A DNA stretch of 64,000 nt from Calothrix brevissima NIES-22 (GTDB lineage Bacteria; Cyanobacteriota; Cyanobacteriia; Cyanobacteriales; Nostocaceae). Location of the stretch: the NCBI RefSeq assembly GCF_002367995.1, contig NZ_AP018207.1:4029083-4093082 (forward strand). Reading direction: 5' to 3'. The position numbers and the translations under genes were made by a program. The notes under the pieces were generated by a model. It was not told the origin of the DNA, ran no database searches, and saw nothing but the letters and a program-made list of their open reading frames with translations. Positions 50,000 through 59,573 of the stretch are shown one piece after another; position 1 is the first letter of the stretch, and each line of letters starts with the position of its first letter.

Positions 50000-50860
50000 A
50001 TGCCTGAACTGCCTGAAGTTGAAACAGTACGCAGGGGTCTAAATCAGTTGACCCTAAATCAAGAAATTACGGGTGGAGATGTGTTGCTCGATCGCACCAT
50101 TGCCTACCCGTTTTCTGTTGGCGAGTTTATTCATGGAATTAAAGGAAATACTATTTCTACTTGGCATCGTCGCGGAAAGTATCTCCTAGCCGAATTGTCT
50201 CCCTCGTCCCCCCCTTCCCCACAATCCCATACCGGCTACCTGGGGGCGCATTTGCGGATGACTGGACAATTACTCTGGCTGCATCGAGATGAGCCATTAC
50301 ACAAGCATACGCGAGTGCGATTATTTTTTGGGGATCAACAGGAATTGCGCTTTGTCGATCAGCGTACCTTTGGGCAAATGTGGTGGGTTCCGCCAAACGT
50401 ACCTGTGGAAACTGCAATGACAGGTTTAGCTAAACTGGCGGTAGATCCGTTTTCCCCAGAGTTTACAGTTGATTATCTGGTGCAAAAGCTGCAAAATCGC
50501 CGCCGTCCGATTAAAACTGCTTTATTGGATCAATCGGTGGTGGCGGGTTTGGGTAATATCTACGCTGATGAAGCACTGTTTAAGAGTGGGATTTTACCAG
50601 AAACTCTTTGTACAAATTTAGAGCGATCGCAAATCAAACTTTTGCGTACTGCCATAATTCAAGTATTAGAAGCGAGTATTGCGGCTGGCGGCACAACTTT
50701 TAGTAATTTCCTCAATGTTAAAGGTGTTAATGGTAACTATGGCGGTGTAGCGTTAGTATACAATCGCACGGGAGAACCTTGCCGAGTCTGTGGTAATGTG
50801 ATACAGCGCATAAAGTTAGGAGGGCGTTCGAGCCACTTTTGCCCTGAATGTCAACATTAG
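50000..50860 (+). CDS. mutM: Formamidopyrimidine-DNA glycosylase
   Basis: This 286-residue base-excision repair enzyme removes 8-oxoguanine and formamidopyrimidines and cleaves the abasic site. The catalytic N-terminus MPELPEVETVRRG (Pro2 Schiff base, Glu3) and the conserved Lys in HRRGKYLL are intact. The helix-two-turn-helix region YADEALFKSGI and the C-terminal zinc finger with two CxxC pairs (EPCRVCG, FCPECQ) are also intact. Oxidative damage repair fits its position beside photosystem genes, although that adjacency need not be functional. Confidence 0.97.
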   Translation: MPELPEVETVRRGLNQLTLNQEITGGDVLLDRTIAYPFSVGEFIHGIKGNTISTWHRRGKYLLAELSPSSPPSPQSHTGYLGAHLRMTGQLLWLHRDEPLHKHTRVRLFFGDQQELRFVDQRTFGQMWWVPPNVPVETAMTGLAKLAVDPFSPEFTVDYLVQKLQNRRRPIKTALLDQSVVAGLGNIYADEALFKSGILPETLCTNLERSQIKLLRTAIIQVLEASIAAGGTTFSNFLNVKGVNGNYGGVALVYNRTGEPCRVCGNVIQRIKLGGRSSHFCPECQH

Positions 50861-51094
50861 GTAGGGGCATGGCAGTGCCCATTGGTGTCAAATTAAGCTA
50901 AAAGCTATATACGGCGCGTGTTGTACAAAAACTTTCGCCCTCATCCCCTAACCCCTTCTCCCCCAGGAGAAGGGGAATTAAATCTCTTGCTCCCCTCTCC
51001 CACCGGGAGAGGGGCTGGGGGTGAGGGTAAAAAGCTTGCTACAAAGCGGGTTTCACGTTAAGTTGACACGTATGGGCAGTGCCATGCCCTCTAG
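50861..51094. mobile_element. MITE-like element with nested CCCTCA-type hairpin
   Basis: Terminal imperfect inverted repeats of about 30 bp (GTAGGGGCATGGCAGTGCCC with GGTGTCAA at the left; TTGACACG with GGGCAGTGCCATGCCCT at the right) bound a 234-bp element. Inside, 50938-51027 is a second palindromic repeat (CCCTCATCCCC...GGGGGTGAGGG) with internal AGAAGGGG stems. It has no coding capacity. It begins right after the mutM stop codon. Confidence 0.75.
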
Positions 51095-51247
51095 AATATA
51101 TTGATGTACCGCCTTATTTACGTTTCGTAATACATTGGGAAGTTAAACCTTGATATTTAAAGATACCAATGCCAGCTTTTAACCTTTATGTATTGGCAAG
51201 AGCTAAGATCCTGTATAAAAGGATTTAGAAAATCGAGAGGGGAACTC

Positions 51248-51463
51248 ATGCCAATCAAAAAAGGTGATATGGTTCGCGCTGTTCGCGAAAAGCTGGAAAA
51301 CAGCTTAGAAGCAAAAGCTAGCGATACCCGCTTTCCTAACTATTTGTTTGACAGCAAAGGTGAAATTGTGGATCTCAAAGGGGATTACGCCTTAGTGAAA
51401 TTTGGCCAAGTTCCAACACCCAACATTTGGTTACGTGTAGATCAACTGGAAGAATTTAAATAA
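51248..51463 (+). CDS. ndhO: NAD(P)H dehydrogenase-like complex subunit O
   Basis: This 71-residue subunit of the photosynthetic NDH-1 complex is found only in cyanobacteria and chloroplasts. NDH-1 carries out cyclic electron flow and respiration at the thylakoid. The match covers the whole protein: [62 protein letters not shown] 51248 is chosen because an upstream in-frame ATG (51188) adds an unrelated 20-residue extension. AGGGGAAC precedes the start as a ribosome site. Confidence 0.95.
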
Positions 51464-51470
51464 TTCTCTC

Positions 51471-51496
51471 CCCTCAGACTAAAAATTAGTCTGGGG
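51471..51496 (+). terminator. Hairpin after ndhO
   Basis: CCCTCAGACT and AGTCTGGGG form a 9-10-bp stem (one G-T pair) around AAAAATT, starting 8 bp after the ndhO stop. The T-run is poor, but position and strength suggest termination. Further small palindromes (CAGGACTTCAGTCCTG at 51514-51529, AGCACCTTTGTGCT after it) fill the spacer before mdh. Confidence 0.55.
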
Positions 51497-51713
51497 TTGA
51501 TCCAGCTAGTAATCAGGACTTCAGTCCTGGATTTTAAAGCACCTTTGTGCTGATAAAAAACTTATAAACCTATTAGTCAGGACTTTTGTCCTTTGTTGGA
51601 AAACATCTCCTGTGCTGAAAACAAACTCATCATAATTTATCAACCAAACCACTGATCTATCGTTGAGGTAGATAGTGGAATACTATCTCCGACTATTTAG
51701 TCGCTTAATATAT

Positions 51714-52694
51714 ATGTCTTCTTATCTTGAATCTCCGGCTGTATGTCATTTACCCCGCGTGACTGTTATTGGTGCTGGTAGAGTTGGTAGTACCCTAGCC
51801 CAAAGAATTGCAGAGAAAAATCTAGCAGATGTAGTATTGCTAGATATCGTCAAAGGTATGCCTCAAGGCTTGGCGCTCGATTTAATGGAAGCTAGGGGAA
51901 TTGAAATCCATAATCGTCAAATTATCGGCACTAACGACTATATTCATACATCGGGTTCGGAAATTGTCGTGATTACCGCAGGTATTCCCCGCAAACCCGG
52001 TATGAGTAGAGATGATTTACTTAAAACCAATGCCAAGATTGTGGTGGAAGCAGCCAAAAATGCGATCGCTCATTCTCCCAATGCAATTTTAATCGTTGTC
52101 ACCAATCCTTTAGATGTGATGACTTATTTAGCTTGGCAAGCTAGCGGATTACCACGCGATCGCGTCATGGGTATGGCTGGCGTGTTAGACTCAGCCAGAT
52201 TTGAAGCCTTTATAGCTTTAGAATTAGGAGTTTTACCCGCCGATGTCAAAGCAATGGTATTAGGTAGCCACGGCGATTTAATGGTTCCTTTACCGCGTTA
52301 TGCTAACGTCAACGGCATCCCGATTACAGAATTATTAGATGCAGCTACCATTGAACGCTTAGTAGAAAGAACCCGCAATGGCGGTGCGGAAATTGTCGAA
52401 TTAATGCAGACAGGCGGTGCTTTTTTTGCTCCCGCTTCTGCTGTCAGCGTTATGGTGGAATCGATATTGCTTAATCAGTCGCGATTGTTACCTGTAGCCG
52501 CTTATCTCCAAGGCGAATACGGCTTAAATGATGTCTTTATTGGCGTTCCCTGTCGCTTGAGTTGCGGTGGAATTGAGAGCGTACTGGAATTAAACATCAC
52601 CGACGAAGAAAAAGCTGCTTTACATCTTTCTGCCCAATCTGTACGTCAAAATATTGACCGAGCGCAGGAAATTTTAGCTACTGTTAATGTTTGA
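51714..52694 (+). CDS. mdh: Malate dehydrogenase
   Basis: This 326-residue NAD-dependent dehydrogenase of the LDH-like malate dehydrogenase group interconverts malate and oxaloacetate. The Rossmann motif is VTVIGAGRVGSTLAQRI with the NAD-specific Asp in VLLDI. The substrate-binding arginines are in ITAGIPRKPGMSRDDLL (mobile loop) and DRVMGMAGVLDSARFE. The catalytic His is in VLGSHGDLMVPLPRY. ATG 51714 (MSSYLESP) is preferred over GTG 51675. Lactate dehydrogenase is the alternative, but the Arg in the specificity loop favours malate. Confidence 0.92.
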   Translation: MSSYLESPAVCHLPRVTVIGAGRVGSTLAQRIAEKNLADVVLLDIVKGMPQGLALDLMEARGIEIHNRQIIGTNDYIHTSGSEIVVITAGIPRKPGMSRDDLLKTNAKIVVEAAKNAIAHSPNAILIVVTNPLDVMTYLAWQASGLPRDRVMGMAGVLDSARFEAFIALELGVLPADVKAMVLGSHGDLMVPLPRYANVNGIPITELLDAATIERLVERTRNGGAEIVELMQTGGAFFAPASAVSVMVESILLNQSRLLPVAAYLQGEYGLNDVFIGVPCRLSCGGIESVLELNITDEEKAALHLSAQSVRQNIDRAQEILATVNV

Positions 52695-52783: not shown

Positions 52784-53104
52784 TTAGCGGCGGTATTCCT
52801 CATCGGCGGGGTCGCCATAGGGGTCTTCGCTAGCTGGACGGACATCACCAAAAGATCCTTGGTCTGCGGGGTCGCCGTAGGGATCTTGGCTGGCGGGGAT
52901 AGCGTTTCCGTAAACATCTGCGGGGTCGCCGTAAGGGTCTTGACTAGCAGGGATGGCGTTTCCGTAAACGTCTTGGTCTCCCGGATCGCCATAGGGGTCT
53001 TCACTGGCTGGACGGACATCGCGATCGCGGTATTCGTCTTCAGCTTGATTGTCTTTGTTTCCTAAGAACAAATCCCTCGCTTTGCGGAAAAAATCATCTA
53101 CCAC
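52784..53104 (-). CDS. Acidic protein of four PAS(E/Q)DPYGDP repeats
   Basis: This 106-residue protein begins VDDFFRKARDLFLGNKDNQ, an amphipathic N-terminal helix. Four direct repeats of a 16-21-residue unit built around PASxDPYGDPxD follow, with VYGNAI or FGDVR between them. It is rich in Asp, Pro, Gly and Tyr and likely disordered. I chose GTG 53104 because AGGAG stands 7 bases upstream; a longer frame begins at 53179. I recognise it only as a conserved-looking cyanobacterial hypothetical. Its repeats are nearly identical at DNA level, so copy number may vary. The lipoprotein gene lies 90 bp upstream. Confidence 0.65.
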   Translation of the reverse strand: MVDDFFRKARDLFLGNKDNQAEDEYRDRDVRPASEDPYGDPGDQDVYGNAIPASQDPYGDPADVYGNAIPASQDPYGDPADQGSFGDVRPASEDPYGDPADEEYRR

Positions 53105-53194
53105 GATCTGTCTCCTTTGTGAATATTGTGGTTTCACCTGCGTGACAGGCGTTATTCTCTCAAGTTGCTTGCATGACACACAGGTTTAACTGAT

Positions 53195-53686
53195 TTAAAG
53201 TGCTGGAGCTTCAGTTGCAGAGATACCAGTTAAATCTCTACCTGTAGAGCGCCCGTTATAACCTTGAAAGTCGCGGTATCTTTGCGCCTCAGATTCAGGG
53301 ACACGAATTCCTTCTGATGGTGGAGTTACCCAATGGGCGCGATGTTCAGCATCGCGGTAGTATACACGCCCGTTTTTAGAAAGGTAGTATTTTCCTTGAG
53401 GCCCTTCTTGTTGGGCGTTCTGATGCTTGTTGTAGAGGTAGTAAAGTGCTGCTGCTCCTGCCAAAATTGCGACTTTCTGTCCTGTACCTAGCCCCTTCTT
53501 AGCTTGGGGTTGGTTTGCGGTGTTGCGATCGCTCACTGTTCTACCAACCGTATCATCAACTGGTGGTGGTACATTCGCAGTTCGGGAACCTCCGCAGCTA
53601 GTCAGCACGGGTACTATTAGCAATGCTGACAGACAAATAGCCAGCAGACGCGAAATAAATTTACGCTCTTTGTATGTTGTGTTCAT
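53195..53686 (-). CDS. Hypothetical lipoprotein
   Basis: This 163-residue exported lipoprotein has a signal peptide at residues about 10-30 (LLAICLSALLIVPVLTSC) with an LTSC lipobox. A Pro/Asn-rich spacer follows, then a short hydrophobic stretch around residue 73 (VAILAGAAALYYLYN). The C-terminal region KYYLSKNGRVYYRDAEHRAH, WVTPPSEGIRVPESEAQRYR looks like a small conserved domain. It likely sits at the outer face of the plasma membrane. Function unknown. It lies just upstream of the DPYGDP-repeat gene on the same strand. Confidence 0.72.
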   Translation of the reverse strand: MNTTYKERKFISRLLAICLSALLIVPVLTSCGGSRTANVPPPVDDTVGRTVSDRNTANQPQAKKGLGTGQKVAILAGAAALYYLYNKHQNAQQEGPQGKYYLSKNGRVYYRDAEHRAHWVTPPSEGIRVPESEAQRYRDFQGYNGRSTGRDLTGISATEAPAL

Positions 53687-54175: not shown

Positions 54176-54841
54176 ATGACTGTGAAGAAAAATAATTTAA
54201 CTAAAACTCGCTTGCTACTGGCTTTGTGGGATTTGGGAGGAACGCAGCAGGAAGTCAGAAAAAGTCAACTTTCCGACAGAATGAAATCCAAGGGCAAGAA
54301 CATAGCAGGTTATCCCGGCATATTAGACGAATTGCAGAAACAAGGAGCGATCGCAATCACCAAAAAGGGATACTCTTTAGCTTCTCCCAAGGGTTTAGAG
54401 GTATTGGGTGAGGGTTTGAAAGATAGCGATTTTAAATTTGAAGGCACAATAGTTGGTACTTGGGCGGCTAATGCGTTGGTGAAATGGATTAGTCAAATAG
54501 ATGTGGCAGTAGTTAGTACATCTGCATCAGTAAAGAGTAAGAGTGCTAAAGATGCGATCGCTTCTTACGATGAATTTAAGCCAGTTGCCTTGGAAACCTA
54601 CGAAAAGTTGAACCAAAACTACAACCTCAATGATTTGGTGCCAATTTATCGTATTAGAAGAGAAATAGCTAATCGTGTTAGTCGTGAGAATTTTAATACT
54701 TGGCTTTTGGAAATGCAAGCTAACGATATTTTTCAGCTAATGGCTGGAGAAATGCCAGACATCACACCTGATAAGCGTGATGACTCGATAACAATTCCTG
54801 GCGGTGGATTGCGCTACTATACAAAGCTTTTAAATTCCTAA
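54176..54841 (+). CDS. Possible winged-helix protein, gene 1 of a three-gene candidate defence operon
   Basis: This 221-residue cytoplasmic protein of unknown function has an N-terminal 75 residues that look like a winged-helix or helix-turn-helix domain (TKTRLLLALWDLGGTQQEVR, then GILDELQKQGAIAITKKGY). The C-terminal part is helical (IYRIRREIANRVSRENFNTW, LLEMQANDIFQLMAGEM). It stands 37 bp upstream of an AAA-type ATPase gene and on the same strand. In this setting it may be a DNA-binding regulator or a specificity/adaptor subunit. The domain call is by pattern only. Confidence 0.6.
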   Translation: MTVKKNNLTKTRLLLALWDLGGTQQEVRKSQLSDRMKSKGKNIAGYPGILDELQKQGAIAITKKGYSLASPKGLEVLGEGLKDSDFKFEGTIVGTWAANALVKWISQIDVAVVSTSASVKSKSAKDAIASYDEFKPVALETYEKLNQNYNLNDLVPIYRIRREIANRVSRENFNTWLLEMQANDIFQLMAGEMPDITPDKRDDSITIPGGGLRYYTKLLNS

Positions 54842-54878
54842 ATCGTTCTAAATCCCTGTGTAGCTCCTTACCTCAAAC

Positions 54879-56876
54879 ATGATCGCTATGGATAGTTCAA
54901 AAGTTTCCCCGTTAGAAGTTCTCAATGCTGCTATCACAAGTCACAATCCATTTATCAATGCTGGAATAGTCAAAGAACAAGATATCTGGGGAAGAGGATT
55001 CCCTGATGTTCCAACTTTCAATGCTCATGCTTCTGATGCAGTATTTCAGGCAATTGAATTAGTACGTACCAGTCAGTCTAGTTATGACAAAGTAACATCT
55101 ATTGCTATAACAGCTGCACAAGGAGTAGGTAAAACTCACCTCCTCAGTCGCATTCGCCATCGTCTGGAACGTGATGGTGGAGCTTTATTTGTTTATGCAG
55201 GTGTGAATAACTACACTGATTTAAACTTGGTTAAATACCAATTCCAGCAAACTTTGGCAGATAGTCTCAGTAAAACTGGTAGCCAAGAGGTTATGCAGTG
55301 GCAAGAAGTAGCAGCTGCAATGGCAAACGAAGGATTTAAAGCTATTAATGCTGATGCTCCCAGCCTTTCACCACAAGAACTTCTGGAAAAATTTGACAAA
55401 GTATATGCAAGTTGGTTAGCTAGAAACAAAAATTTAATGGATAGGCTAACTAAGGAAGTTCTCAGAACAAAACCAAATGCAGATCCTTATATTGTCAGAG
55501 CTATTTTGTGGACACTTTCAGAAACTAGGGCAACTTTTGCAATCAAATGGTTATCTGGGGAAGAACTAGCAAACTCTAATGCCGATGCTATGGGATTACC
55601 CAATCCTCAAAAAACTAATCAAGATAGAGAAGCTGAAGCTCTTAAAATTATTCAACAAATCCTAAATTTGGTAAGTTATTATCAACCAGTAATTATTTGT
55701 TTTGATGAAATTGACGTAGAAAATAATTGTAATGATGATGGATTAACAACTCCACAGGTAATTGCTGATTTGGTAAAACGTTTACATGATACCCTCGAAC
55801 AGTCTGAATTAGGTCGAGGTGTTGTTATTCTCACAGTCATGTTGCCTGATACATGGACAAATAAAGTAAATTTAATGCCTGGAGGTACACCAGATAGAGT
55901 TTCCAAATATACACAACGTAAAGCTATAAATTTAAAAACATTGGGTGCTGATTCTATGGTTGAACTAGTCACCCTTTGGCTACAAAATTTTTACGAGAGC
56001 AGAAATTTAGTACCGCATAATCCACTCTATCCTTTTCAAGAGAGTGAAGTGAGAAAATATGGTAAAAACGGATTAACTGTTAGAGAAGCATTGAAATGGT
56101 GTGCAGACAATTTTAATGTTGAACAAGACACATTACCACCAGAACCACTAGAGCGTTTCAAACTAGTATTAGACAGAGAAAGTAAATTAACACGTCTAAA
56201 TATAATAGAGGATAATGACCTAATTAATCATACTTTACGCTTTTGTTTTGAGGCTTTAAAAGGTCAGACATTAAATGGTGAAACTTCAACAGGTGAGAAA
56301 TTACAAGAAGTCACTATTGAAGATGTTGTTGATATAGAGCCACGGTCAAAAAATCAAGGTTGGATTAACTTTAAACTAATTGGCAAAGAGAAAGATAAGG
56401 TTTTCAAAATTGGCGTTGCTGTGTTGCAATACTCACATGGAAAAGCCGTAGGAGCCGGAATGTGGCGTTTAATTGAATATAAAACCTTTGATATCACACG
56501 AGGATGTTTAGTCCGTTCTAAAACAAAAGAAAAAAAGATTCACAAGACTTGGGATTCTTATAGTCATCTCAAGAAGTTGGTTGAAGAATTGGGTGGAGAA
56601 CATGTTGATTTAAAACTAGAGGAAGTTCGTCCACTCATTGACCTATATTCTGTTTATCAAAAACGCAATAGCTATCAATTAACAGAAGAACAAATTCTTG
56701 AGTTTGCAAAGCCCCTAACTGCTAATAATCCTTTGTTGTTAGAAATTCTTAGCGATCCATCCGGACAGATTGATGAGGATACTATAGAAGGGGAAGAATT
56801 ATTAAACGACTTTCTTAACCCATTAATTGTGCAAGAAACAGATGATTCTGACGATTTGAGTGAATTGTTCAATTAA
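54879..56876 (+). CDS. AAA/STAND-like P-loop ATPase, gene 2 of the candidate defence operon
   Basis: This 665-residue ATPase has Walker A AAQGVGKTH with Lys85 (residues 79-87) and Walker B IICFDEID with Asp276 and Glu277. A sensor-1-like strand GVVILTVMLPDTW follows. The region between Walker A and B is longer than usual (about 190 residues, helical). The C-terminal half (about 430-620) contains beta-rich stretches such as INFKLIGKEKDKVFKIGVAV and may be a sensor or nucleic-acid-binding domain. The very end is acidic. It is probably a switch or motor for the nuclease encoded 2 bp downstream. It resembles Orc/STAND-type ATPases in general shape; the precise family is unrecognised. Confidence 0.72.
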   Translation: MIAMDSSKVSPLEVLNAAITSHNPFINAGIVKEQDIWGRGFPDVPTFNAHASDAVFQAIELVRTSQSSYDKVTSIAITAAQGVGKTHLLSRIRHRLERDGGALFVYAGVNNYTDLNLVKYQFQQTLADSLSKTGSQEVMQWQEVAAAMANEGFKAINADAPSLSPQELLEKFDKVYASWLARNKNLMDRLTKEVLRTKPNADPYIVRAILWTLSETRATFAIKWLSGEELANSNADAMGLPNPQKTNQDREAEALKIIQQILNLVSYYQPVIICFDEIDVENNCNDDGLTTPQVIADLVKRLHDTLEQSELGRGVVILTVMLPDTWTNKVNLMPGGTPDRVSKYTQRKAINLKTLGADSMVELVTLWLQNFYESRNLVPHNPLYPFQESEVRKYGKNGLTVREALKWCADNFNVEQDTLPPEPLERFKLVLDRESKLTRLNIIEDNDLINHTLRFCFEALKGQTLNGETSTGEKLQEVTIEDVVDIEPRSKNQGWINFKLIGKEKDKVFKIGVAVLQYSHGKAVGAGMWRLIEYKTFDITRGCLVRSKTKEKKIHKTWDSYSHLKKLVEELGGEHVDLKLEEVRPLIDLYSVYQKRNSYQLTEEQILEFAKPLTANNPLLLEILSDPSGQIDEDTIEGEELLNDFLNPLIVQETDDSDDLSELFN

Positions 56877-56878
56877 AC

Positions 56879-58327
56879 ATGAGCGAATCGGTGTTATTAG
56901 ATACAGCACTGTGTTTACCAGCCTCTGATATTGAATCCTTAGTACAAGGGCGGATGATTGCTGTAATACCTGGTAAATTCATTAATCTAGGGCAAAAATT
57001 TGCTCTCTATCCAGTCGCTGGAGTGATGAACTTCCAATTATTTCAGCAATACTATTGCCCAAGTTTTTCTATGTTTGCCAGAGAAACTTTAGAAAAACTA
57101 GATCCTAACAAGATTTTGATTAGAGCTTGGGCTAGGTGTGAAGGCTGTAAAATTCACACTGCTGAGTCTTTCGATGCTTTATCCCAGTTAACCATCTGGA
57201 CGAAAGAAGCATTGCAGTATGAACTTGGGCAACGACCTTATATTTTTCTAGCCTACCTACGTGTCTATTTCTTTCTCCATCCAATTGAGATTTCGGTACG
57301 AGCCAAACATCGTCAGTTTGTACCTTTACGTAATTCATTAAATGCCTCAGAAGCAGAACCTATATTAAGCGATCGCACTTTCGCCCAACGCAAACGCCAG
57401 TTAGAAAATTTAGAACCACCTCAGTATCCTGAATTGGAAGAGTTGGAGAGTTCATTAGCCTTGTTTAGTATGAATAATCCAACTGCTAAAGAATTAGATA
57501 ATGATATCAAAGTATTTTTAGGTTGGAGTAGTAATAAATTAATTAAGCAATCCGATCCTGATTTAGCTTGGATAAATGATATTGCAGCATTAGGCGATCG
57601 CAGTCTTGAAAAAGACGATGGTAAAAGTAACTATCAAGCTGGTACAGACTTTGAAAATATCGCACGTCGTAGCCTGGATTTTTTAGGATTTAAGGTTGAA
57701 GAAAACTACAAAGGTGGTGCAGGTGGCTTAGATTTATTTTGTTCACAACCTTATCCTCTTGTTTGCGAGTGTAAAGCAGGTAAAAGCATTCCCGATCGCG
57801 CAGTAGAAGAACTAGATAGGATTGGTAAAAGACATCTTAAAGAAAATTATCTGCAAGCGGTGCGGTTGATTATCGGCCCAGGTCAACCCACAAAAAACCT
57901 CAAAGAATCTGCTGCAATATCTAAAATTAGTATTATCAATGTCATGTCTCTACAAAAACTAGTTGAACTCAAAGCCAAATATCCAGGTGCAATTAATTTA
58001 ATTGAATTACAGCAATATTTAGAACCTGGGCAAATTGACTATAAAATTGATGAATATATTGAAAAAGCTGAGAAACAGATTAAATTGCGATCGCACATCA
58101 TCCAGCTTGTCAAAAATTATCTGCAAAACTCAGGTATAGAATCTGCTGGTGTCGATAGTTTACATGGCGCGTATTTTGGCTCAAATCCACCACAGCCATT
58201 AAAACCACAAGAAATGCACGAAATTCTGATTGAATTATCATCGCCCTTAACAGGCTATTTAGGACGAGTTAAAGGAGAAGATTGGAGACGCGATCGCTTT
58301 TACTACCTACGCGACTTACCCCTTTAA
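56879..58327 (+). CDS. DUF1802 protein with PD-(D/E)XK nuclease domain, gene 3 of the candidate defence operon
   Basis: This 482-residue protein joins an N-terminal DUF1802 domain (DTALCLPASDIESLVQGRMI, ALYPVAGVMNFQLF) to a restriction-endonuclease-like core at about residues 250-350. The core has Glu259 (TDFENIARRSLDFLGF), Asp285 (GGAGGLDLF), and Glu297-x-Lys299 (LVCECKAGKS), the full PD-(D/E)XK set. It should therefore cleave DNA. As I recall, DUF1802 has been noted next to Mrr-type domains and linked to restriction systems. The start codon is 2 bp after the ATPase stop, so the two are coupled. Likely role: effector nuclease of the operon. Confidence 0.75.
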   Translation: MSESVLLDTALCLPASDIESLVQGRMIAVIPGKFINLGQKFALYPVAGVMNFQLFQQYYCPSFSMFARETLEKLDPNKILIRAWARCEGCKIHTAESFDALSQLTIWTKEALQYELGQRPYIFLAYLRVYFFLHPIEISVRAKHRQFVPLRNSLNASEAEPILSDRTFAQRKRQLENLEPPQYPELEELESSLALFSMNNPTAKELDNDIKVFLGWSSNKLIKQSDPDLAWINDIAALGDRSLEKDDGKSNYQAGTDFENIARRSLDFLGFKVEENYKGGAGGLDLFCSQPYPLVCECKAGKSIPDRAVEELDRIGKRHLKENYLQAVRLIIGPGQPTKNLKESAAISKISIINVMSLQKLVELKAKYPGAINLIELQQYLEPGQIDYKIDEYIEKAEKQIKLRSHIIQLVKNYLQNSGIESAGVDSLHGAYFGSNPPQPLKPQEMHEILIELSSPLTGYLGRVKGEDWRRDRFYYLRDLPL

Positions 58328-58757: not shown

Positions 58758-59573
58758 ATGGCTAAAAAATTAGCATTTCTCACCATACATGGCATGGGAG
58801 AAACGGAGAAAGACTATTACCATATTCTCAAACAATCTCTAGAGAAAGCTTTAGGCAAAGATATTTGGACTACAGTTCATTTAGAACCGATTTACTATCA
58901 TTCTGATTTGCAAGAGTATCAATATAACGTTTGGGAAAAGATGCGTCAACGTGCGCCTCTGTCTTGGCAAGATTTACGCAAATTTATGTTGTTTGGTTTT
59001 AGCGATGCATCTGCGTTAGAACATCGAGCTACAGATGATGGTAGCGTATATAAAAAAATTCAAAAATCGATTATTTGTTCCTTAAAAATTGCCAGAAATC
59101 AATTCTCTACCAATGATGTACCTATCATTATTTTAGCTCATTCATTAGGTTGCCAAGTTATATCTAATTATCTTTGGGATAGTCAGAAAAATAAAGGCAT
59201 TTGGCAACAAGGTAGCCCCGATTATCCTGTATTTCCTCCAGAGCAAGAAGATTTTTTAAAGTTGAAATATCTCCGCTATTTATTTACCACTGGCTGTAAT
59301 ATCCCCTTATTCGTAGCAGGATTTGCAGATATTGTGGCAATTTCTAAGCCAAATCCTGATTTTAAATGGTTTAATTATTACGATAAAGATGATGTTTTAG
59401 GCTGGCCTTTAAAACCTTTATCGCCTTCTTATGATTTAGTAGTCGATAAAGATATAGAGATTGATTCCGGAAATCTTTGGCAATCGTGGAATCCGCAAAG
59501 CCATGATGGTTACTGGACTGATGAAGAGTTTATTGAACATTTATCGCAAGTTATTAAGCGTTTAAGTAGTTGA
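58758..59573 (+). CDS. Lipase/alpha-beta hydrolase-like protein
   Basis: This 271-residue cytoplasmic protein begins with AFLTIHGMGETEKDYYHI, where HGMG is the oxyanion-hole motif. It has a nucleophile elbow AHSLGCQVISNYLW (Ser near residue 132). A catalytic His could be the one in SHDGYWTDEEF near the C-terminus, and the acidic residue is unclear. The segment between these contains Trp/Phe-rich loops. It is placed after the candidate defence operon but 430 bp away, with the small minus-strand ORF between. Function is unknown; a phospholipase- or esterase-like activity is plausible. Confidence 0.7.
   Translation: MAKKLAFLTIHGMGETEKDYYHILKQSLEKALGKDIWTTVHLEPIYYHSDLQEYQYNVWEKMRQRAPLSWQDLRKFMLFGFSDASALEHRATDDGSVYKKIQKSIICSLKIARNQFSTNDVPIIILAHSLGCQVISNYLWDSQKNKGIWQQGSPDYPVFPPEQEDFLKLKYLRYLFTTGCNIPLFVAGFADIVAISKPNPDFKWFNYYDKDDVLGWPLKPLSPSYDLVVDKDIEIDSGNLWQSWNPQSHDGYWTDEEFIEHLSQVIKRLSS

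Follow-up and report, generated by a model that had tools for sequence, protein, structure and literature searches.

A predicted three-gene restriction complex of cyanobacteria, probably modification-sensing and under diversifying selection

Several described systems resemble the locus considered here. Type IV endonucleases such as Mrr, VcaM4I, DpnI and HhiV4I combine a nuclease with PUA-superfamily and/or winged-helix readers, while the McrBC and CoCoNuT systems, likewise of type IV, pair an AAA+ motor with a neighbouring PD-(D/E)XK nuclease and a possible base-reader domain. The hsd loci of type I restriction-modification (R-M), as in the immigration control region of enteric bacteria, occur at a single chromosomal site as variants that have diverged from each other, with exchangeable variable blocks separated by conserved regions, such as the exchanged TRDs of HsdS. 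More limited likenesses concern BrxC of the BREX systems and the protein SeqA. An operon of Calothrix brevissima NIES-22 can be compared with all of these; its genes are referred to as A, B and C, and positions are those of the window, i. e. the whole stretch of 64,000 nucleotides that was analysed:

54176..54841, + strand: gene A, 221 aa, probable tandem winged-helix adaptor
54879..56876, + strand: gene B, 665 aa, AAA+ ATPase, Orc1/Cdc6-like, with BrxC among its fold matches
56879..58327, + strand: gene C, 482 aa, DUF1802, Mrr-type PD-(D/E)XK nuclease and C-terminal winged-helix-like region

In the ORF list of the window, the genes share the + strand and are separated by gaps of 37 and 2 bp, the tight packing already described in an earlier sequence-only reading. 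The three genes also co-occur in other genomes: an intact B lies upstream in 126 of the 140 distinct C genes collected, and an intact A followed by an intact B in 119 of them. A-B-C is thus one conserved operon with a conserved gene order. The conserved unit comprises only these genes and includes no cognate methyltransferase, which agrees with the earlier observation on this window; D12 methyltransferases, the one family searched for, are present but unlinked in 15/15 genomes. A scan of the three proteins with PADLOC (2023 models) gave no confident match, with none at all for A and B at E≤1, and the operon still lacks a confident match to a named system, as first noted.

The ATPase motifs of B and the nuclease residues of C are near-invariant across the 119 aligned operons, from which strong constraint on both proteins can be read. 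In B, they are located as follows (residue alignment):

55113..55136, + strand: Walker A of B, residues 79-86, with Lys85
55689..55709, + strand: Walker B of B, residues 271-277, with Asp276-Glu277

Both motifs had been called intact, and this holds across the family: Lys85 and Asp276 are found in 119/119 operons and Glu277 in 106/119, the remainder having Gln (12) or Arg (1). Since B matches AAA_16, KAP and Cdc6/ORC, with no McrB model listed by Pfam, NCBIfam or the fold search, it is by sequence and structure prediction an Orc1/Cdc6-like AAA+ ATPase, although the TM-scores of its predicted structure are low (best 0.26 for the query). BrxC is among these fold matches and Pfam BrxC_BrxD hits 2/35 relatives; A, B and C have no match to other BREX proteins (PglZ, BrxB/PglX), and membership in BREX is hence not indicated. 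The B proteins of some lineages have a SeqA-like domain (PF03925) at their end, found at E≤0.001 in 7/15 genomes of a sample chosen to include long B proteins, and above the cut-off in 3/7. A profile of this domain retrieved SeqA chains only from the PDB (5/5 hits), while a single-sequence PDB search found nothing. In one further genome, the match (E 0.003) was missed at this threshold. Unlike SeqA itself, the domain is fused to an AAA+ ATPase; it is absent from B of the window, and the window's genome gave no match. D12 methyltransferases, taken as a Dam test of the SeqA idea, were uninformative, as they occur in all 15 genomes, with and without the domain.

Protein C consists of three parts:

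56906..57400, + strand: DUF1802 domain of C, residues 10-174 (Pfam), PUA/ASCH-like by predicted fold
57614..57976, + strand: Mrr-type nuclease domain of C, residues 246-366, with E259, D285, E297 and K299 (Pfam, alignment)
57977..58324, + strand: C-terminal winged-helix-like region of C, residues 367-482 (predicted secondary structure)

The assignment of DUF1802 (PF08819) made from the sequence proved correct (96.2 bits, cut-off 25, E 2.7e-27; 42/42 aligned relatives), and so did the full PD-(D/E)XK set, with Glu259, Glu297 and Lys299 in 119/119 and Asp285 in 118/119 operons. When residues 246-482 of the window's C are taken alone, Mrr_cat is matched with 23.9 bits (cut-off 21, E 4.9e-05); the model is not listed in a Pfam scan of the whole protein and matches 18/42 relatives at E≤0.01. 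The predicted structure of the nuclease matches EndoMS/NucS. The fold of DUF1802 weakly resembles PUA/ASCH domains: a structure search returned the Zymomonas ASCH protein 5guq_A (TMt 0.56, prob 0.98, E 0.12) as well as the ASCH domain of TRIP4. The E-values are weak, the best for ASCH being 0.028, and the top hit was ORC (E 1.3e-3). A profile comparison with cyanobacterial ASCH proteins, a small and weak set of 11 used from 15 hits, found nothing. DUF1802 was therefore not accepted as a true member of the ASCH family, the likeness being one of fold alone.

For A and 36 relatives, Pfam gave no domain above the cut-off. The A profile weakly matches ribosomal protein eS10 (E 0.03-0.07), a winged-helix protein, and winged-helix Pfam models each match weakly in 1/36 relatives. 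The earlier suggestion of a possible winged-helix protein thereby gains weak matches, though no domain assignment, and A probably belongs to this class.

Taken together, the operon may encode a putative methyltransferase-less, ATP-dependent, restriction-like complex that destroys DNA, a reading to which we assign a probability of roughly 0.5. In this complex, A would bind DNA through its winged helices and dock onto B with its C-terminal part, while B may assemble on DNA, with ATP hydrolysis licensing or translocating. B would also engage the DUF1802 domain of C, and cutting would fall to the Mrr-type nuclease between the PUA/ASCH-like domain and the winged-helix-like region. Foreign DNA could most likely be told apart via its modification state in a type IV-like manner, with DUF1802 and the winged helix as candidate readers, joined in those lineages that have it by the SeqA-like domain on B. 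The absence of DUF1802 from one natural B-C fusion (L040) is expected if this domain links C to B. Because C and some B proteins carry candidate readers, self/non-self control need not be confined to the ATPase or the 221-residue protein, where the sequence-only reading had placed it.

With the type IV endonucleases, the operon shares the Mrr-type PD-(D/E)XK domain with intact catalytic residues, a winged-helix-like region, the lack of a methyltransferase and, by fold, a PUA/ASCH-like domain. For a modified-base reader, there are only candidates: DUF1802, with its weak fold match and negative profile comparison, and the SeqA-like domain of some B proteins. The operon differs in the order DUF1802-Mrr_cat-winged helix and in its constant AAA+ and winged-helix partner genes. 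An AAA+ motor adjoining a PD-(D/E)XK nuclease is likewise shared with McrBC and CoCoNuT, from which the operon deviates by its Orc1/Cdc6-like B without a McrB match, a putative reader on the nuclease and the extra protein A. As the McrC model is not listed by Pfam for the window's C or its relatives either, the pair of McrB-type AAA+ GTPase and McrC that defines McrBC was not found.

Instead of reading DNA modification, A and B might sense a phage protein or a replication intermediate, upon which activated C would destroy host or phage DNA, as an abortive-infection or sensor-effector immunity system. Two weak NCBIfam hits of B point in this direction, the ATPase_Sll1717 family with 31 bits (cut-off 75, E 1.3e-07) and the anti-phage ATPase DS41_1 with 22 bits (cut-off 370, E 7.1e-05), as does a weak PADLOC match of C to CARF_PDDEXK effectors (E 9.5e-05). 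The latter is restricted to residues 294-365; with the nuclease part alone matching, C was not taken for a CARF effector, and the Pfam, NCBIfam and PADLOC scans revealed no CARF or other ligand-sensor domain. Moreover, the PUA/ASCH-like and winged-helix-like regions of C are of a kind that reads DNA, and the occasional SeqA-like domain on B also argues against this alternative, which we regard as rather unlikely.

The restriction-like complex should also be viewed in light of how the operon varies between close relatives. As judged from the sequences, it is a mosaic, in which one constant block is followed by three others, each changing between distinct, old alleles nearly without regard to the rest:

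54176..54625, + strand: constant 5' block of A, residues 1-150, identity tracking the flanking genes
54671..57358, + strand: variable block V1 (A166-221, all of B and C1-160), inherited together, 3 major types
57779..57928, + strand: variable block V2 in C, residues 301-350, directly after the ExK motif, bimodal identity
58079..58228, + strand: variable block V3 in C, residues 401-450, within the winged-helix-like region

Among 486 close pairs, defined as species with flanking genes >90% identical, at least one block differs in 96%. Different alleles are present at V1 in 331/486, at V2 in 345/486 and at V3 in 304/486 pairs, whereas the flanks are 94% identical; blocks of close species may share only 30-50% identity, and for V2 none of the 486 pairs falls between 0.5 and 0.7. 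Since 4-fold-site identity is 0.41-0.48 in different-allele pairs versus 0.76 in the flanks (same-allele pairs 0.66-0.79), the alleles appear to be old and exchanged rather than fast-evolving in place. Residues 1-150 of A have a 4-fold-site identity of 0.81 in these close pairs. The three blocks reassort nearly freely, giving 27 joint genotypes among 56 close operons: V1 and V2 are not associated (AMI -0.004, p=0.47), V2 and V3 only weakly (p=0.009), and V2 shows a weak species signal (p=0.005). In contrast, the C-terminal part of A, B and DUF1802 form one block, with distances correlating at r 0.64-0.78 between proteins (95 operons). Adjacency within one recombination tract alone also predicts this co-variation.

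Such a mosaic could also be an artefact of hidden paralogy, if tandem copies had been differentially lost and were misread as alleles. Three tandem copies of C or A-B-C exist at one locus (L033) and two each at four others (L034-L037), and three genomes (G065, G147, G165) have two C genes at separate places, so that lost paralogues and gene conversion are a possible source of alleles. As the general explanation, however, this is very improbable: only 5 deduplicated loci have more than one intact C, breakpoints fall inside individual genes, repeatedly at identical positions, and A1-150 co-tracks with the flanks (r=0.87, 1571 pairs) while the blocks between do not.

By analogy, the mosaic is the pattern to be expected from a restriction, immunity or DNA-import-control locus. 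It recalls the hsd loci, except that here the entire ATPase and a portion of the nuclease are among the exchanged blocks; neither Pfam nor NCBIfam matches HsdR, HsdM or HsdS to any of the three proteins, which sets the operon apart from type I R-M. Tentatively, it could be a combinatorial immunity locus, in which the AAA+/reader cassette, the nuclease sub-domain and the winged-helix module are swapped independently between strains at one chromosomal site of filamentous cyanobacteria and rare-allele advantage maintains many genotypes. It would be a bacterial counterpart of a polymorphic immune locus, one that varies motor and blade and not a specificity subunit alone. Under the restriction-like reading, rare alleles would be favoured against phages or other incoming DNA, and this advantage would drive allele exchange. 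For an abortive-infection system, alleles would instead follow the triggers and inhibitors of phages in an arms race, which variation in all three blocks, the whole ATPase included, would fit as well.

Most Nostocaceae operons occupy one chromosomal site, recognised in the window by its upstream genes:

50000..52694, + strand: anchor genes mutM, ndhO and mdh, outside the operon, recurrent locus (NdhO by Pfam; the other two, recognised by sequence, we take to be mutM and mdh)

Flanking genes of this site were common to 40/40 Nostocaceae loci checked. Matches to C, partial ones included, were obtained in 168/211 sampled Nostocaceae. In cyanobacteria overall, the operon is patchy (110/243 genomes of the order, 45/292 of the phylum sample), and it is hence not a feature fixed at one locus in all cyanobacteria, a distribution that the sequence-only reading had named as evidence against defence. 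At its site, it is lost by internal deletion: C 3' stubs persist in 4/8 Nostocaceae loci without intact C. Among the loci scanned, only L040 and L099 had a full-length C accompanied by additional C 3' fragments, and orphan 3' cassettes as in polymorphic toxins were therefore dismissed as a general mechanism.

A discrete set of allele classes at one site, many joint genotypes and a wide occurrence in Nostocaceae would also suit a kin- or strain-discrimination locus controlling import in filamentous cyanobacteria, where DNA or cells of unlike genotype are destroyed and rare-allele advantage, not phages, upholds the polymorphism. As no fourth gene for delivery or immunity recurs beside the operon in most loci, this appears quite improbable. 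A Cdc6-like ATPase and a nuclease could alternatively form a long-standing housekeeping complex for DNA repair, replication or recombination, consistent with the recurrent site, the commonness in Nostocaceae and the fold matches to Cdc6/ORC and EndoMS/NucS. Such a role is improbable, given the patchy distribution, the internal deletions and broken copies, and a block identity between close species that contradicts a conserved housekeeping function.

Searches for C in plasmids, phages and viral contigs and for B in viral contigs gave no match, and B had one weak partial match in plasmids (25% identity over 42%). This fits a housekeeping complex, and association with mobile elements was rejected for now. 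Nor is the operon enriched in defence neighbours: 128 neighbouring genes at 24 loci, most of these not at the usual Nostocales site, matched 73 PADLOC families at E≤1e-10, versus 253 for 128 control genes from 20 loci (families counted, not proteins, with the first 25 listed; control positions hand-picked in operon-bearing genomes, with only partly overlapping genome sets). Because of this lack of enrichment, location in defence islands was rejected. The initial idea of a defence or restriction module is thus supported by the conserved operon, its constraint and the allelic mosaic, but not by defence islands or mobile elements. Its commonness in Nostocaceae and chromosomal stability are unusual for a restriction system and count against the restriction-like complex as the best explanation.

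If this reading is true, the operon represents a common cyanobacterial DNA-control system for which no name was found, and it might help to explain transformation barriers in Nostoc and relatives. Matched species with shared flanks and unlike ATPase, nuclease and DNA-binding alleles provide a natural experiment, by which specificity can be tested through block swaps. Fixed-site allelic mosaics, and not defence islands alone, may thus offer another search route to uncharacterised immune loci.

The earlier observation of a packed operon is confirmed and its interpretation, a defence or restriction module without a methyltransferase, is supported in part; the unexpected element is a mosaic of alleles at a chromosomal site that recurs between genomes. 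The three genes, all on the same strand as described in the sequence-only reading, are separated by 37 bp (A-B) and 2 bp (B-C) in a window at 4.03-4.09 Mb of the main contig (genome size 9.26 Mb):

54176-54841, plus strand, gene A, 221 aa, probable winged-helix protein
54879-56876, plus strand, gene B, 665 aa, predicted AAA+ ATPase
56879-58327, plus strand, gene C, 482 aa, DUF1802 and predicted Mrr-type PD-(D/E)XK nuclease

The DUF1802 assignment of C held up, with a Pfam E-value of 2.7e-27 in the window protein and matches in 42/42 aligned relatives. C-terminal to it, the Mrr_cat nuclease was found in 18/42 relatives at E<=0.01; it was absent from the Pfam matches of the whole window C and appeared above cut-off (E 4.9e-05) when residues 246-482 were scanned alone. 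Downstream of the nuclease, the AlphaFold2 model (mean pLDDT 86, pTM 0.58) ends in a helix-helix-helix-strand-strand arrangement that looks like a winged helix. Foldseek of this model against the PDB gave nothing at E<=0.001; recurring matches were ORC/Cdc6 chains (best E 1.3e-3), EndoMS/NucS nucleases (probability 0.99) and ASCH domains, both human (TRIP4) and from Zymomonas (best E 0.028; 5guq_A, probability 0.98, TMt 0.56). We take DUF1802 to be PUA/ASCH-like on the basis of the model, with the reservation that profile-profile comparison to 11 cyanobacterial ASCH proteins was negative. A stand-alone short DUF1802 protein of ~192 aa (same genome, G000:C1:8022343-8022861, minus strand) is a possible source of the first domain of C; Synechococcus elongatus and Deinobacterium chartae, used as controls, also gave matches to the family.

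From its domain matches, B is predicted to be an AAA+ ATPase: among 35 relatives, Pfam returned AAA_16 in 34/35, KAP_NTPase in 28/35 and BrxC_BrxD in 2/35, together with weak NCBIfam matches (ATPase_Sll1717, DS41_1). The top fold matches of its model (pLDDT 86.7) were Cdc6/ORC (E 1.9e-4, low TM-scores), and BrxC of BREX was within the first 50. Neither the window A nor its relatives contained a Pfam domain above cut-off, and matches of winged-helix type were weak. In the alignment of 119 operons, the Walker A/B motifs and the full PD-(D/E)XK set recognized earlier proved near-invariant, with K85 and D276 of B and E259, E297 and K299 of C unchanged in 119/119, D285 of C in 118/119 and E277 of B in 106/119.

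The three genes also stay together. Of the 140 distinct intact C genes in the collected loci, 126 are preceded by an intact B in the same orientation and 119 by intact copies of both A and B; seven have B but no intact A and 14 have neither, second tandem copies and cases with broken partners being among these. In the 119 operons A and B lie a median of 47 bp apart, B and C a median of 2 bp. A B-family gene precedes C in 81/81 loci (80 named plus the window) with at most one small ORF between, being fused, short or split in four (L075, L129, L130, L133). Matches to C, remnants counted, occur in 110/243 genomes of the order, 168/211 of the family and 45/292 of a phylum sample; five of these 45 fall outside the order, and A-B-C is retained in 4/4 loci fetched from them (L202-L205). 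Judged by their titles, the best 80 of 249 C relatives in a collection covering 84,980 species' genomes all come from cyanobacteria. The B profile ranges wider than C (173/243 genomes of the order), and its matches include paralogues that have neither A nor C beside them. In L191 and L192, a B-family ATPase stands alone right behind mutM-ndhO-mdh, and the sequence fetched there contains no A or C; the association of site and ATPase may predate the three-gene operon. In L194, L195, L196 and L201, a distant B paralogue (31-32%) sits between a gene of 216-236 aa and one of 201 aa, possibly as part of a sister operon; the 201-aa gene was scanned in L194 and encodes a von Willebrand A protein. L033-L037 carry A-B-C or C alone in tandem duplication, possibly an allele store.

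At least one anchor gene (mutM, ndhO or mdh upstream, or pgi downstream) was found at 84/140 C genes within the sequence fetched. In 40 Nostocaceae loci fetched for this check, an upstream anchor was present in 36, pgi in 34, both in 30 and neither in none. The commonest order is psaE-mutM-ndhO-mdh ... A-B-C ... pgi-natC-natA, where ndhO was identified by Pfam and the other genes are named from their sequences. The window has the mutM-ndhO-mdh side upstream, with genes that we take to be leuC-leuD downstream. In a Brasilonema group the pgi side is retained and the upstream genes differ, and Microcoleus relatives share a different site. Eight Nostocaceae loci lack an intact C (seven genomes without a phylum-sample match, and G458 with a 60-residue match). 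In four of them (L161, L162, L163, L167) a 3' stub of C remains, two also with a truncated A; here the operon was once present and was excised from within. No operon remnant was found in the other four. There was no sign of a location in defence islands: PADLOC families were not enriched beside the operon relative to hand-picked control loci; the top neighbour domains among 128 genes were DUF4278 (7), Uma2 (5) and ADP-ribosylglycohydrolase (4). Three further genes lie close to the operon in the window:

52784-53179, minus strand, small gene upstream of the operon, one of a pair
53195-53686, minus strand, small gene upstream of the operon, the other of the pair
58758-59573, plus strand, 271-aa gene just 3' of the operon, with a weak serine-hydrolase match that falls under the Pfam cut-off (E 0.025)

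One of the pair carries tandem PASEDPYGDPAD-type repeats and the other resembles a lipoprotein by eye; members of their clusters occur in 18 and 32 of the 81 loci, and the 271-aa gene in only 3/81. Many Nostocaceae, L098 and L103 among them, have repeated pairs of small genes (~120 and ~105 aa, one weakly aspartic-protease-like) in the stretch from C to pgi (28 and 30 of 81 loci). A Dam-type (D12) methyltransferase, one of four D12 matches in this genome, lies ~4 kb ahead of the window start (G000:C1:4024226-4024924, plus strand).

The mosaic, first noticed in 56 pairs of 20 operons, was tested on the 119 aligned operons using pairs with at least three common flanking genes >90% identical (486 close pairs, 56 operons). 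Their flanking genes share 94% amino-acid identity and a 4-fold-site identity of 0.76. A1-150 (0.86 and 0.81) follows the flanks (r 0.87; 1571 pairs, 64 operons), and the pattern breaks up from A166 to C450. Block V1 (A166-221, B and C1-160) falls into 14 types, three of them major (42, 32 and 25 of 119 operons), and differs in 331/486 close pairs; B has amino-acid and 4-fold identities of 0.46 and 0.41 across types versus 0.73 and 0.67 inside them. V2 (C305-347, in the nuclease) differs in 345/486 pairs, with identities of 0.35 between versus 0.92 within alleles and no pair (0/486) between 0.5 and 0.7. V3 (C405-448, in the winged-helix-like region) differs in 304/486 (0.32 versus 0.86). As 4-fold identity between alleles (0.41-0.48) is far under that of the flanks, the alleles look old and exchanged rather than diverged in place. 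Steps can be sharp at the DNA level: between L088 and L147, B is 37-75% identical per 20-codon window and C161-C480 85-100%. Two segments that did not vary among the first 20 operons, C172-298 and C353-398, turn out bimodal once the set is enlarged; hence the exchangeable blocks may number more than three.

INDEPENDENCE. Within the 56 close operons, V1-V2 had an adjusted mutual information of -0.004 (p 0.47), V1-V3 of 0.057 (p 0.067) and V2-V3 of 0.109 (p 0.009), and the species signal, i.e. more similar flanks in same-allele pairs, gave p 0.19 for V1, 0.005 for V2 and 0.069 for V3. V1 is therefore essentially unlinked to V2 and to species, and V2 and V3 are slightly linked. Over all 119 operons the values are 0.07, 0.15 and 0.24 (V1-V2, V1-V3, V2-V3). 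The 56 operons hold 27 joint genotypes, and 92% of the 72 pairs with flanks >96% are unlike in one block or more. V1 types do not follow the locus: B proteins of one type, compared between an anchored site and other places, share 61% identity (703 pairs), versus 46% for unlike types when close species are compared at the anchored site (331 pairs). Allele cut-offs (50-55% identity) were chosen by us; the bimodal V2 and V3 histograms are independent of them. As named loci we used the 80 top-ranking matches to the window C, so diversity is understated if anything. The window shares an identical set of three alleles with Tolypothrix sp. FACHB-123, whose C is the closest named relative among the best 80 of 249 (93% identity); two further intact operons of the window's genus carry other combinations.

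Distances of the C-terminal part of A, B and DUF1802 correlate between proteins (r 0.64-0.78; 95 operons), which fits putative A-B and B-DUF1802 contacts; a single recombination tract would give the same correlations. The N-terminal part of A correlates best (0.65; 95 operons) with C175-245, on the operon's far side. A single natural fusion, in L040 on a contig of 8.9 kb, joins B to C's nuclease part and lacks DUF1802, which favours DUF1802 as the probable link of C to B.

A SeqA C-terminal domain (PF03925) was found at the end of B, directly before C, in 7/15 genomes picked to include long B proteins (above cut-off in three) and is absent from the window B. A profile of the seven domains matched only SeqA chains in the PDB (5/5 at E<=0.1; E 4e-4 to 0.02); a single such sequence searched alone gave no match. 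SeqA is described as binding hemimethylated Dam sites and E. coli Mrr as a winged helix plus Mrr-cat (PMC12707154), and both 6mA-reading winged-helix nucleases (PMC11037411) and PUA-superfamily readers of type IV enzymes (PMC7641849) are documented. By analogy with these precedents, the operon may be type IV-like and sense DNA modification. Apart from the BrxC-like matches of B, no defining protein of BREX, type I R-M or McrBC was found in the operon. Among the papers listed by title and abstract start, mostly outside the subscription literature, none describes a cyanobacterial system so composed, and DUF1802 occurs in a single one, unrelated by its title. For the genetics of the operon, the closest precedents are TRD variation in HsdS and the immigration control region of enteric bacteria, in which conserved anchor genes enclose a restriction locus whose variability is ascribed to negative frequency-dependent selection (PMC12707154).
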